A DNA stretch of 43,091 nt from a virus. Positions 2,325-38,947 of the stretch are shown piece by piece (position 1 is the first letter of the stretch; every line of letters begins with the position of its first letter). The notes under the pieces were generated by a model, which searched no databases, was not told the DNA's origin, and saw nothing but the letters and a program-made list of their open reading frames with translations. Location: the IMG/VR virus record IMGVR_UViG_3300015360_000080, positions 1 through 43,091 of that record; one strand, given 5' to 3'. A program made the translations under genes and the position numbers.

Positions 2325-2411
2325 TCGGATGGCGGAACTTAGATTGGAATGCGCTATCGTTCGTTTCTGACGAAAAAGGCGAAAAGTACTAAAAGACCGC
2401 TCCGGGCAAAG

Positions 2412-2445
2412 AAAAACCCTCAGCGCGTCAACGCTGAGGGTTTTT
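2412..2445. terminator. Bidirectional rho-independent terminator
   Basis: A perfect 9-bp stem, CCCTCAGCG with CGCTGAGGG, and a 6-base CGTCAA loop are flanked by A5 on the left and T5 on the right. It can therefore end transcripts from either side. It lies between the rightward DUF1376 gene and the end of the leftward operon, which converge here. Confidence 0.92.
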
Positions 2446-2449
2446 CTCA

Positions 2450-2512: not shown

Positions 2513-2713
2513 TCACGGCTTGCCTTGAGTGGGTGAGCATTTGTGTCGTCGGGCAGCGGCGCGTTTGGCGGTCATTGCCCCGCAAGGGCAACGGTCAGGC
2601 CCTCGCGGCCGACCAGTATTTAGCGCTTGCGAGTATGCGTCCTTGATCGCGTCGCGACTGGCTGTCAGGATTGCGGCCACTTGTTCGAGGGGCGGGAGGT
2701 TGGCCAGGGTCAT
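2513..2713 (-). CDS. Small basic hypothetical protein with Cys/His cluster
   Basis: This 66-residue protein is the last gene of the leftward operon. Its start overlaps the stop of the gene before it (ATGA on the minus strand), which supports it as real. The N-terminal half is a probable helix and the C-terminal half is rich in Arg, Lys and Ala. A CPCGAM motif and a later HKC could bind a metal. The family is not recognised. An intrinsic terminator follows 26 bases after the stop. Confidence 0.7.
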   Translation of the reverse strand: MTLANLPPLEQVAAILTASRDAIKDAYSQALNTGRPRGPDRCPCGAMTAKRAAARRHKCSPTQGKP

Positions 2714-3504
2714 TGGGCGGTCTCGGCTTGTTTTGTAGCGTATCGCTCAGCCAGTACGGCGTGGTTGAGGTGTAATTTACCATCGAGTACCCAGGCCAGC
2801 AGTGCGCCGGCCTGATAGATGTCGTAGGATCGCCAGTCGATCTGATCCGACTCATCCTCTAGCTCTGGCCATTTGACCGGCCAAAGGATTTTGTATTCTT
2901 CCCCTGCGTTATCCACGGCAGCTGCTTGGTAGGTGCCGTTTTGGTCGCTCGGGTAGGGATCCTGTGTGAGCACCAAGTGCTTCTCGCCGTAAGTCGCTGA
3001 GCCGTGAGGCTCTGGGTCTTTTGGGGCTGGGAGATCATAGTCTTCGGCGAATTCGATATTGGCCCAGCCTGTCTTGGGCAACACAAAGCTACCGCAGGAG
3101 CCATCTGCTTCCCACCGCGTGACTTCGGCGAGTGTGCAGGTAATCGCTCGCGTCGTGTAGTCGTGGTAGCACTCAACGTTAATTTCACTCGCGACAGTGG
3201 CCCAGTCTCCCCCGGCCATCTGAAAAGACTGTCGAACATCGCTCAACCAGTTCACAACACACCTGTTGCTATCGCCCCGCGCTCCGCTGTAAACTGGCCA
3301 AGGCCGGTATTCGATAAACCGCTTCACTCTCATCTGTTTCCCGTTAGCGCGTAGGACGATTTTGATTTCTTTTATGGCTTTCAATCGGCTCTCGATATTG
3401 TCGAGTTTTCGGTGCATCTCAGCATCCAGTTCGTCGATCGAGTAGCGATCAATTCCGGCCGGTCCGTCCGCGTAATCTCTTGTTGATGGGTTTGTGGTGT
3501 TCAT
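2710..3504 (-). CDS. Hypothetical protein (264 aa), leftward operon
   Basis: A 264-residue soluble protein with no signal peptide or membrane segment. The start at 3504 is chosen because AGGAG lies just upstream (CACAGGAGAAAAAAACA before ATG); an open extension to 3636 lacks such a site. The protein has a predicted N-terminal coiled helix (about residues 15-50) and a mixed alpha/beta body with many Trp and Tyr, ending in a short helical tail. The family is not recognised. The leader with CAGACACAGGAGAAAA is almost the same as that before the gene at 3881-4471, so the operon reuses two leader types: this one and the ribozyme type. Confidence 0.75.
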   Translation of the reverse strand: MNTTNPSTRDYADGPAGIDRYSIDELDAEMHRKLDNIESRLKAIKEIKIVLRANGKQMRVKRFIEYRPWPVYSGARGDSNRCVVNWLSDVRQSFQMAGGDWATVASEINVECYHDYTTRAITCTLAEVTRWEADGSCGSFVLPKTGWANIEFAEDYDLPAPKDPEPHGSATYGEKHLVLTQDPYPSDQNGTYQAAAVDNAGEEYKILWPVKWPELEDESDQIDWRSYDIYQAGALLAWVLDGKLHLNHAVLAERYATKQAETAQ

Positions 3505-3533: not shown

Positions 3534-3791
3534 TTACTTGACGGGGCTCGCATTCATCCATAGGATCGCCACGCTGCCCCTGCGTGGGTGCCCGTAGTTG
3601 GCCAGCACTGTATTCGCCGCGTACGACGCAATGCACCGCTCAGCTCCATTGGCGGCACGCAAATCATAATACCCACGCTCATCGTACGTCTTGCGGATTG
3701 GTGCGAGGTTGTTGTCCTTGACGAACTGAATGGCTTCTTCGATTTCCTCGCGGCATCCCGCGTTGTTCAAATTGCTTCCGTATTGGTACAT
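3534..3791 (-). CDS. Hypothetical protein (85 aa), downstream of ribozyme copy 1
   Basis: An 85-residue protein of unknown family with an acidic N-terminal helix and a C-terminal part containing RCIASYAANTVLANYG. The start at 3791 gives a natural N-terminus (MYQYGSNLNN) and sits behind the purine-rich leader AGAAAAGACA used by several operon genes. A longer reading from 3851 would run into the ribozyme. If the hammerhead at 3829-3878 cuts, the mRNA for this gene starts about 65 bases before its ATG. Confidence 0.75.
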   Translation of the reverse strand: MYQYGSNLNNAGCREEIEEAIQFVKDNNLAPIRKTYDERGYYDLRAANGAERCIASYAANTVLANYGHPRRGSVAILWMNASPVK

Positions 3792-3823: not shown

Positions 3824-3887
3824 CTGATGGCCTCATCAGCGCCGGATTCACCGGCAGACCCCGGGTGGGGTTTCGGCCTGTTAGGCG
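3824..3887 (-). ncRNA. Type II hammerhead ribozyme, copy 1
   Basis: On the minus strand the core (3878 down to 3829) contains every invariant hammerhead element in type II order. These are stem II strand GGCC, then GAA and A15.1, stem III CCCC-ACCC-GGGG, U16.1 and C17 at the cleavage site, stem I UGCCGG-UGAAU-CCGGCG, then CUGAUGA and the second stem II strand GGCC. The predicted cut lies between 3857 and 3856. The preceding gene's TAA is 2 bases upstream of the stem II strand. Stem I differs in sequence from the other two copies but still pairs over 6 bp (one G-U). The family is known from phage and bacterial genomes; activity here is inferred. Confidence 0.88.
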
Positions 3888-4471
3888 ACGACAGAATCTG
3901 TTACCGGCTCAATCGACACCGGCGGGAGCAAAGCAACCTTGAGGCGTTTAAGGATGTCTTTTTGGCGCTTTTCGTCGAGCTTGACCAAGATCTCCAGGCA
4001 AGAGGTATAGGCGCTGTCAGCGGTCACGGAGGCTAGCACTTTTTCAGCCTGTAGGGCCGTGCGAATCCGGTACTTGCTTTGGTTAACATCCGCGTCATCG
4101 CGGAGCACTTCGCAGATGTCCTCAATGCTTTCACCTTTGTCCAGCCGCGCCGTGATCTTATTCAGCGCCGTTCTTTGGCTGATCTTTGGTTCGTGCTCCG
4201 TGTCAATTTCAAATGGAGCAAGAACTCCATCCAGAGGCAGGTAAAGAACGAACGATATCTCGGCATTTCCTTTTTTGTTGATGCTCTGAGACTTGATTAG
4301 GCTGGCTTCGTCGAAGTCGGCAAAATTCTGCTGTCCAGACTTGCGGCCAACGAATGTGAGCGCTTCTCCATACTTGGGGTCTGTACCTGTTACGAGTGCA
4401 ATGTACTGCTTCGTGTTGCCGTAGCATTTGGATACTACGGTTTTCGTTCGGACTGGGTATGTGGTGGTCAT
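3881..4471 (-). CDS. Hypothetical protein (196 aa), upstream of ribozyme copy 1
   Basis: A 196-residue soluble protein. The N-terminal half is beta-rich (residues 1-90, many Thr and Lys) and the C-terminal half helical, with an acidic segment DKGESIEDICEVLRDDADV and a Lys/Arg-rich helix near residues 160-180. The family is not recognised. The start follows CACAGGAGAAAAGAAA, a good ribosome site. Its last codons and stop (GCC TAA) are part of the repeated cassette that carries the hammerhead, a feature shared with the gene at 5205-5525. Confidence 0.78.
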   Translation of the reverse strand: MTTTYPVRTKTVVSKCYGNTKQYIALVTGTDPKYGEALTFVGRKSGQQNFADFDEASLIKSQSINKKGNAEISFVLYLPLDGVLAPFEIDTEHEPKISQRTALNKITARLDKGESIEDICEVLRDDADVNQSKYRIRTALQAEKVLASVTADSAYTSCLEILVKLDEKRQKDILKRLKVALLPPVSIEPVTDSVVA

Positions 4472-4497
4472 TTTCTTTTCTCCTGTGTCTGGGGGAC

Positions 4498-4692
4498 TTA
4501 GCGGCTGAGGTTAATATCGGCAACGAGCTTGCTGTCGGTCGTTGTGAAAATCTGAGTGCTGTACGTCCGCGCACCGTGGTAGCTGTCCTGAGTGCGGATC
4601 GCGCCGTACTGGCGCTTTGATCTGGCGATTGCATTGCGGCGGATCTTGTTGGCTTCCTTGGACTGGTCTGCGCTTAGCTGTTTGAATGTCAT
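4498..4692 (-). CDS. Small basic hypothetical protein (64 aa), downstream of ribozyme copy 2
   Basis: A 64-residue basic protein. The N-terminal part is a probable Lys/Arg-rich helix (SADQSKEANKIRRNAIARSK) and the C-terminal part beta-like. It might bind nucleic acid, but no family is recognised. The ATG follows the purine-rich leader AGAGAAAAGACA, directly downstream of hammerhead copy 2. It is separated from the next leftward gene by 26 bases without a ribozyme. Confidence 0.65.
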   Translation of the reverse strand: MTFKQLSADQSKEANKIRRNAIARSKRQYGAIRTQDSYHGARTYSTQIFTTTDSKLVADINLSR

Positions 4693-4694
4693 TG

Positions 4695-4779
4695 TCTTTT
4701 CTCTTTTCTTTCTTCTGATGGCCTCATCAGCGCCGGATTCACCGGACGGACCCCGGATGGGGTTTCGGCCTGTTAGGCG
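4695..4779 (-). repeat. 85-bp intergenic repeat, identical partner at 5127-5211
   Basis: The 85 bases here recur without a mismatch 432 bp to the right, and a diverged copy occupies 3824-3887. Each unit carries, in minus-strand order, GCC TAA (terminal Ala codon and stop position), the hammerhead and a purine-rich pre-ATG leader. The perfect identity suggests a recent duplication of a gene-plus-ribozyme cassette, or gene conversion between copies. Confidence 0.92.
4715..4779 (-). ncRNA. Type II hammerhead ribozyme, copy 2
   Basis: The core runs from 4770 down to 4720 on the minus strand, with the same invariant positions as copy 1. Stem III has an AUCC loop in place of ACCC. Stem I is CGUCCGG-UGAAU-CCGGCG with one bulged U, leaving 6 pairs. 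C17 is at 4749, so the predicted cut is 4749/4748, which would give the downstream gene at 4498-4692 a 56-base 5' leader. Stem II is GGCC/GGCC with a possible internal loop and CU/AG extension that could contact loop I. Confidence 0.9.
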
Positions 4780-4788
4780 ATGCGTTCA

Positions 4789-5124
4789 CTATTCGCCGCA
4801 GTCGTCTCCTGTCCCTGGGGGGTATAGTGCGGCTTCGAGATCGGCGGTAATCTTCTCATAGGTAGCTTGGTAGCCTTCCATGTCGGTCGCCATTTCCAGA
4901 TCAGCTTCGGCTGATTCCAGGATCTCCGCGAGCGCTTGAGCGTTAGGTCCAATCTCGGCGATCCGGCCCTTGGCCTCGACCTTGGCAACCTCATAAGCGT
5001 GCTCGGTCTTCAATGCCTCTGCGCTCCAATCGTCATGGTCGTCAGTGGTGATCGTTTTTAGGGAGCGCATCGGGTTCCCGGTCTGGTGCATGTAGTCGGT
5101 GGTTTCAATCGTTGTGTTGGTCAT
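4789..5124 (-). CDS. Acidic helical hypothetical protein (111 aa), between ribozyme copies 2 and 3
   Basis: A 111-residue acidic, mostly helical protein (EALKTEHAYEVAKVEAKG, then ILESAEADLEMATDMEGYQ), probably a small coiled coil. The family is unknown. The ending looks frameshifted. The current frame stops at TAG 14 bases before the repeat's own TAA, while the neighbouring frame reads ...SERIA and stops exactly at that TAA, as the other two genes before ribozymes do. A run of six C on the coding strand (4815-4820 region) is the likely indel site. Whether this is a sequencing error or real cannot be told. Confidence 0.7.
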   Translation of the reverse strand: MTNTTIETTDYMHQTGNPMRSLKTITTDDHDDWSAEALKTEHAYEVAKVEAKGRIAEIGPNAQALAEILESAEADLEMATDMEGYQATYEKITADLEAALYPPGTGDDCGE

Positions 5125-5146
5125 TTTCTTTTCTCTTTTCTTTCTT

Positions 5147-5211
5147 CTGATGGCCTCATCAGCGCCGGATTCACCGGACGGACCCCGGATGGGGTTTCGG
5201 CCTGTTAGGCG
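5147..5211 (-). ncRNA. Type II hammerhead ribozyme, copy 3
   Basis: The core runs from 5202 down to 5152 on the minus strand and is identical in sequence to copy 2. C17 is at 5181 and the predicted cut is 5181/5180. It would separate the first operon gene (stop TAA at 5205-5207, 2 bases before the stem II strand) from the gene at 4789-5124, whose ATG lies 56 bases after the cut. The CUGAUGA box is at 5162-5156 and GAAA at 5198-5195. Confidence 0.9.
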
Positions 5212-5525
5212 CGGTCGATCATCCGCAGGTTGAACGGGTGCTGGTAGCCTTCTGGACCCCAGGAGGCGAGGATCGCGGATACCGCTGTTTCGCCCGCATC
5301 TACTTTTACAGCGGTTTCAGACTCTTTGCCATCGCCGTTGCGGGACCAGATAAAGCCATCTTTTGCGAACAGCTCGTACTGCCTGTCGTCGCTCCCGAGT
5401 ATCCTTGCGAGTGCATCATCGTTGTGGCGGTATGAGCAAAATGCGTCATAGTGGCGAACCTGGCCGAAAATCATTACGCTGATTTCGTTTTCGGTGATTT
5501 CTGTTTTGCAATCGAAGCAGGTCAT
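5205..5525 (-). CDS. Hypothetical protein (106 aa), first gene of the leftward operon
   Basis: A 106-residue protein starting with a CFDC pair and with another Cys and His near residues 25-33 (HYDAFCSYRH), so an N-terminal metal site is possible. The rest is mixed alpha/beta and acidic. No family is recognised. The start at 5525 follows the AGAGAAAAGACA leader; the reading from 5597 would begin upstream of the putative -10 box. Its stop lies in the ribozyme cassette. A promoter- and operator-like segment lies at 5566-5597. Confidence 0.75.
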   Translation of the reverse strand: MTCFDCKTEITENEISVMIFGQVRHYDAFCSYRHNDDALARILGSDDRQYELFAKDGFIWSRNGDGKESETAVKVDAGETAVSAILASWGPEGYQHPFNLRMIDRA

Positions 5526-38491: not shown

Positions 38492-38947
38492 ATGCAGACC
38501 ATCAACCTCCTGTTCGATTCCGGGTGCGAGCCCAGCGACGAGCTGCGCCGCATCCTCACCATGCTCACCCAAGTAAATGAAAGACAAGAAAGACTCATGA
38601 AACTAACCAAAGACCAAGCGTCAGTAATTAACCAAAAACTAGATCAGCTCAAATCCGCTCTTGCGATGATGCAAAACCGAGTGCACATTGACTTCGACTA
38701 TTTAAGGACACGACTCAATGAGGGCGAGCAGATTACGCAATCGGACATGGACGCGCTGGAGGCGAAATTCAATAGCATCCTCAGCGACGTGTCGCGCGTT
38801 GACCTGATCCCCGATATCCCGCCCGTCGGGCCAGTTGACCTGATCCCCGGTATGCCGCCCGTCGGGCCAGTTGACCTGATCCCCGATATCCCGCCCGTCG
38901 AGCCAGTTGACACCGCAACCACGCCCGACGATCCAACAACCACCTAG
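38492..38947 (+). CDS. Coiled-coil protein with Pro-rich tandem repeat (151 aa)
   Basis: A 151-residue protein. The first 100 residues are coiled coil (LTQVNERQERLMKLTKDQAS and later heptads), and the rest is a 12-residue repeat VDLIPDIPPVGP in three copies plus a partial, ending in a Thr/Pro tail. Such Pro-rich repeats can be extended spacers or SH3-like ligands. ATG 38492 is 5 bases after the preceding stop; a start at 38450 lies inside the preceding gene. Confidence 0.65.
   Translation: MQTINLLFDSGCEPSDELRRILTMLTQVNERQERLMKLTKDQASVINQKLDQLKSALAMMQNRVHIDFDYLRTRLNEGEQITQSDMDALEAKFNSILSDVSRVDLIPDIPPVGPVDLIPGMPPVGPVDLIPDIPPVEPVDTATTPDDPTTT
38798..38911 (+). repeat. 36-bp tandem repeat, three units plus 6 bases
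   Basis: Units start at 38798, 38834 and 38870, each beginning GTTGACCTGATCCCC, with only a few substitutions and no indel. They are nearly identical, pointing to recent slippage expansion. Confidence 0.92.

Follow-up and report, generated by a model that had tools for sequence, protein, structure and literature searches.

Three type II hammerhead ribozymes between genes of a phage operon and a covarying tail that may pair with the ribozyme core

Type II hammerhead ribozymes were described by Perreault et al. in 2011, along with clusters of copies that flank prophage genes (PMC3088659). Since the same mRNA processing of long phage transcripts was already proposed in that work, the processing idea is not new here. 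Tandem arrays cleaved in vitro, and one array cleaved in E. coli (PMC3088659). The array beside ardA in Agrobacterium tumefaciens, for which cleavage was observed both in vitro and upon expression in E. coli, resembles the present locus in placing three hammerheads in one phage gene run, but the genes concerned are different (PMC3088659). A likeness is also seen in HHphage of the haloviruses HF1 and HF2, a hammerhead located 13 nt upstream of a viral start codon; however, HHphage has a variant core, possibly tuned to salt, and is found as one copy ahead of a helicase gene (PMC3088659). A 2017 review regards the role of the hammerhead in prokaryotes as an open question (PMC6155905). The Rfam family of type II hammerheads (RF02276; PMC3088659) and the locus described here share the core, the open stem II, the closed stems I and III, the phage or prophage setting and the presence of copies flanking genes. 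They differ in stem II, which has 4 bp (GGCC/GGCC) here and two pairs in the Rfam model, and in the tail, where the AGCC of the model is replaced by an anti-core AUCAG.

The DNA analysed (hereafter the window) is the complete 43,091-nt virus record IMGVR_UViG_3300015360_000080. The window encodes a terminase large subunit and a head-closure protein and is therefore assigned to a tailed phage. A minus-strand run at 5525‒2710 comprises six genes, none with a known family, and three hammerhead copies separate codirectional genes of this run, all on the same strand (Table 1). The 196-aa gene before copy 1 has no relatives in viral contigs or phage records, and no DNA similarity to phage records was detected for positions 2500‒7000 of the window. 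A scan for sigma-70 promoters gave no excess over shuffled sequences. The inverted repeat at the other end of the run is likely a two-way intrinsic terminator that closes the operon, and the three copies are probably carried on one shared transcript. The original prediction that the copies separate the genes of one operon is borne out in three of the five gaps within the run, but the gaps 4498/4471 and 3534/3504 lack a ribozyme, and the predicted mRNA pieces are therefore partly bicistronic.

Table 1. Positions of the ribozymes, their tails and the surrounding genes in the window.
Feature	Position	Strand	Details
Type II hammerhead, copy 1	3828..3879	minus	predicted cut 3857/3856, C17 at 3857; RF02276 26.2 bits; R1 57.0 bits, E 1.7e-17
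Type II hammerhead, copy 2	4719..4771	minus	predicted cut 4749/4748; RF02276 23.5 bits; R1 50.2 bits, E 3.9e-15
Type II hammerhead, copy 3	5151..5203	minus	predicted cut 5181/5180; RF02276 23.5 bits; R1 50.2 bits, E 3.9e-15
Anti-core tail CATCAG, copy 1	3824..3829	minus	complement of core CTGATG; covariation in relatives
Anti-core tail CATCAG, copy 2	4715..4720	minus	from sequence
Anti-core tail CATCAG, copy 3	5147..5152	minus	from sequence
Gene upstream of copy 3	5205..5525	minus	106 aa, no known family
Gene between copies 3 and 2	4789..5124	minus	111 aa, no known family; predicted single-gene piece
Gene after copy 2	4498..4692	minus	64 aa, no known family
Gene before copy 1	3881..4471	minus	196 aa, no known family
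Gene after copy 1	3534..3791	minus	85 aa, no known family
Last gene of the run	2710..3504	minus	264 aa, no known family
Inverted repeat	2410..2447	none	perfect, 16 bp, with A and T runs; from sequence, not reported by a simple scan

In all three copies, the conserved core CUGANGA and GAAA with the A15.1-U16.1 pair is present, position 17 is C, a cleavable residue, and not G, stems I and III are closed by loops, and stem II is open. The three minus-strand motifs with CUGAUGA, GAAA, A15.1-U16.1 and C17 were located where the original prediction had placed them, together with the cut sites it gave for copies 1 and 2; the third site lies in copy 3 (Table 1). Copy 1 is composed of the conserved A, stem II (GGCC/GGCC), stem III (CCCC-ACCC-GGGG) and stem I (GCCGG-UGAAU-CCGGC). 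As also predicted, copies 2 and 3 are identical in the ribozyme part, and copy 1, in which stem I has no bulged U and loop III has one changed base, keeps the pairing. The TAA stop codon of the gene upstream of copy 3 ends 1 nt ahead of the conserved A of the ribozyme. A 92-nt unit of stop codon, ribozyme and purine leader is identical at 91 of 92 positions between 4688‒4779 and 5120‒5211, where the flanking genes are unrelated, and looks as if it had been copied as a cassette. At 4779‒4771, the TAA of this unit sits behind the real TAG stop codon of the gene.

At its own cut-off of 37 bits, RF02276 reported nothing for the region, and all three copies score below this limit. When the threshold was opened and 4,227 Rfam families were searched, the three best matches in the region were Hammerhead_II (RF02276), with E values of 0.017‒0.087. 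The low scores arise because stem II in the Rfam model has 2 bp and the tail of the model reads AGCC, whereas the window has GGCC/GGCC and another tail. The 37-bit limit is a detection cut-off tuned to a different tail and a shorter stem II rather than a feature of the ribozyme itself, and it is exceeded by relatives in two other loci, L256 and L019. Since the subtype in the window falls below the Rfam cut-off, such ribozymes are probably under-counted. A descriptor of the paired stems matched three times in the window, whereas 300 dinucleotide shuffles together yielded a single match. With a covariance model trained on 35 other phage ribozymes and not on the window (hereafter R1), the three copies were the only hits up to E = 1.

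Because of the low Rfam score, relatives were collected with patterns that fixed the core and stem II alone and did not require pairing in stems I and III. Depending on the pattern, at least 118, at least 120 and 47 stretches matched in viral contigs. The dead-core pattern CTAATGA was found in none of the viral contigs, compared with at least 118 for the intact core. Bacterial and archaeal genomes gave 21 matches, 13 of which pair properly; the remaining eight, including one in Mycobacterium lepromatosis, failed the pairing test and are not claimed. Both stems I and III are present in 380 of the 421 distinct pattern matches listed, and when the halves of stem I were exchanged between ribozymes, they paired in 68 of 1,946 trials. 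In the 35-row R1 alignment, whose rows were picked for paired stems, 12 of 16 pairs are changed on both sides, with covariation in all three stems, and slid controls fail. Across more than 500 relatives from viral contigs, stems I and III covary. Frequencies among the matches listed describe only the subtype with a 4-bp stem II, to which the search patterns were restricted. The covariance models, the relatives, the covariation and the dead-core control all support the type II assignment of the original prediction, and judged by its sequence, the motif is a true hammerhead of type II.

The position of the ribozymes between genes recurs in the relatives. For 530 unique ribozymes with flanks, the median distance from the end of a long upstream ORF to stem II is 2 nt (70% lie within -3 to +6), and the median distance to the start of a downstream ORF, which has a purine-rich leader, is 22 nt. 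The conserved A before stem II favours chance stop codons, which makes the ORF figure more reliable; the short distances between stop codon and ribozyme may reflect only the compactness of phage genomes. Among the matches listed, 118 of 444 ribozyme-bearing loci have at least two ribozymes, and all copies lie on one strand in 117 of these 118. The largest array, in L256, has 11 ribozymes in 5 kb (2227‒7188). Nine to eleven hammerheads per locus, about one per intergenic gap, were seen in L256, L213, L019, L442 and L475. The cultured Streptomyces phage Puginator (L484, PP978857) carries seven type II hammerheads at 903‒4926, all above the Rfam cut-off and none annotated. The layout in the relatives agrees with a putative processing of long transcripts. 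Large phage arrays with a constant geometry of stop codon, ribozyme, ribosome-binding site and start codon, among them the 11-copy, 5-kb array and the array of the cultured Streptomyces phage, make the processing hypothesis directly testable.

We consider it probable that the three type II hammerheads cleave the RNA of the minus-strand operon in cis, after C17, and leave products closed by hairpins, with an anti-core hairpin acting as a lock or a trap. In the type II arrangement, stems I and III each form a closed hairpin, and each product would keep one of them. On the upstream mRNA, the stop codon would be followed by a short stretch, stem III and a terminal 2',3'-cyclic phosphate; the downstream mRNA would begin with a 5'-OH on stem I, and a ribosome-binding stretch rich in purines would then precede its start codon. 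The terminal hairpins of the two products would be expected to slow exonucleases and thereby protect the mRNA ends. A putative role in mRNA processing fits this layout.

The AUCAG tail, which the original prediction did not mention, is the less expected part of the finding. AUCAG follows all three copies in the window and, together with the last C of stem II, forms CAUCAG, the complement of the core CUGAUG. CATCAG outnumbers every other tail 6-mer in the relatives, ribosome-binding words included (60/313, versus 2 to 7 for control stretches), and its enrichment holds within all three large stem II classes. Among the matches listed, 63 of 349 ribozymes have a tail complementary to CUGAUG, compared with about 1‒2% in control stretches; any other ribozyme 6-mer is complemented by the tail at most seven times in these 349. 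Most ribozymes have no anti-core tail.

The single free position of the core is number 7, and a pairing of CUGACGA with CGTCAG was predicted before such ribozymes were inspected. Ribozymes with U7 have 58 CATCAG and four CGTCAG tails, the latter allowing a U-G pair, whereas those with C7 have no CATCAG and ten CGTCAG tails (Fisher P = 2e-9). The relatedness of the contigs was roughly controlled by clustering on shared 20-mers, as 14-mers chained nearly all of them, and the CATCAG:CGTCAG counts by cluster were 15:4 for U7 and 0:7 for C7 (P = 5e-4). In L298, two ribozymes with the same stem I differ by exactly the double change of core position 7 and tail. CTTCAG or CCTCAG tails were present in none of the 66 ribozymes with A7 or G7 cores, and the covariation between core and tail therefore holds only between U7 and C7. 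Cores of CTGAAGA or CTGAGGA occur in phage arrays (e.g., L019, L256, L287 and L238), never with an anti-core tail. We found no earlier description of the anti-core pairing in the open-access literature, and one may exist elsewhere; the main text of PMC3088659 mentions no anti-core tail and contains neither "sequester" nor "alternative structure". Within the open-access literature searched, the anti-core tail seems to be new. A separate hairpin, GCCUAACAGGC, which hides the 5' strand of stem II in the window, was rejected as a family feature, being found in eight of 530 relatives and 27 times in a control stretch.

The anti-core hairpin and the active core are mutually exclusive. In computed folds of the full RNA, the anti-core hairpin is favored over the hammerhead by about 5 kcal/mol, a figure that does not include tertiary contacts, and it becomes the best fold only after AUCAG is present. 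The hairpin also forms in computed folds of the 3' product alone. The computed advantage, again without tertiary contacts, means that uncleaved RNA could be trapped. During transcription, AUCAG would emerge from the polymerase just past the complete ribozyme and pair with the core strand (CUGAUG-AGGC-CAUCAG). Before cleavage, this pairing would trap the RNA uncleaved; after cleavage, it would draw the core strand away from the other product, so that the cut could not be reversed. Cleavage and trapping would thus race during transcription. A lock after cleavage is the simplest interpretation, as both partners of the hairpin reside in the 3' product, and the hairpin may serve as a post-cleavage lock or a co-transcriptional timer. 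It is conceivable, and we propose it only tentatively, that a subset of phage type II hammerheads is self-controlled by the covarying anti-core hairpin, with cleavage timed by transcription, perhaps also by the ribosome at the stop codon, and then locked. In attenuator-type bacterial leaders, two exclusive pairings in one RNA settle the outcome during transcription. Here, unlike in attenuators, one of the two folds is a self-cleaving ribozyme core, and there is no terminator and no known ligand. If this is true, a small self-cleaving ribozyme would naturally carry its own control, and would do so repeatedly between the genes of one operon. The anti-core hairpin provides a specific prediction on the timing or the irreversibility of the cut that can be addressed by mutation.

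The main alternative to the lock is a regulated off-switch, which we regard as unlikely but worth weighing. The anti-core fold would then be the default of the uncleaved mRNA, and cleavage would occur only if something keeps the tail and the core apart, such as a ribosome at the abutting stop codon or at the start site, a protein or an ion level; the ribozymes would switch the operon instead of processing all of it. Consistent with this, the types with an anti-core tail form stem II with a computed probability of 0.10, versus 0.52 for the others, and the values for core-tail pairing are 0.88 versus 0.19. A ribosome terminating at the stop codon would presumably cover the 5' strand of stem II. 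However, the presence of both partners in the 3' product suits a step after cleavage at least equally well, no ligand-binding domain or partner was seen, and ribozymes without the tail occupy the same contexts.

Three further explanations are improbable. Copies 2 and 3 could be decayed or selfish cassettes, a recent duplication of stop codon, ribozyme and leader that is kept by recombination and has no role for the phage, as the 91/92 identity of ribozyme and leader between unrelated genes would suggest. We consider this improbable, since the core is fully conserved and the stems covary in hundreds of relatives, and the position and strand between genes are consistent. CATCAG could also be the tail partner of the loop I pseudoknot described by Perreault et al. 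(PMC3088659), unrelated to the core. Loop I UGAUG could pair with CAUCA, and complementarity between loop I and tail in the relatives overall is 2.65 versus 2.32 in shuffled pairs (sd 0.058). However, UGAUG is found in stem-loop I of five of 63 ribozymes with CATCAG and 20 of 269 without it, and the tail covaries with core position 7, which pairing with loop I does not predict; this explanation is therefore very improbable and was rejected. In the window, the contact between loop I and tail is weak, UGA:UCA at most. Scarcely credible is the view that the palindrome CTGATGAGGCCATCAG and the hairpins are a DNA operator or ordinary mRNA stability hairpins with an inactive or incidental hammerhead: tail and core do make a DNA palindrome and hairpins at mRNA ends are common, but the invariant hammerhead core lies outside the paired stems, dead-core forms are absent, and the distance of CATCAG from the core varies (offsets 3‒18), which an operator would not tolerate.

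Two further repeats were observed in the window. At 1750‒1821, 11-nt repeats, TCGAACACTCT (22-nt unit, 3.3 copies), lie within a plus-strand ORF, and at 38798‒38911, a 36-nt repeat of in-frame length is present in 3.2 copies with 93% identity.
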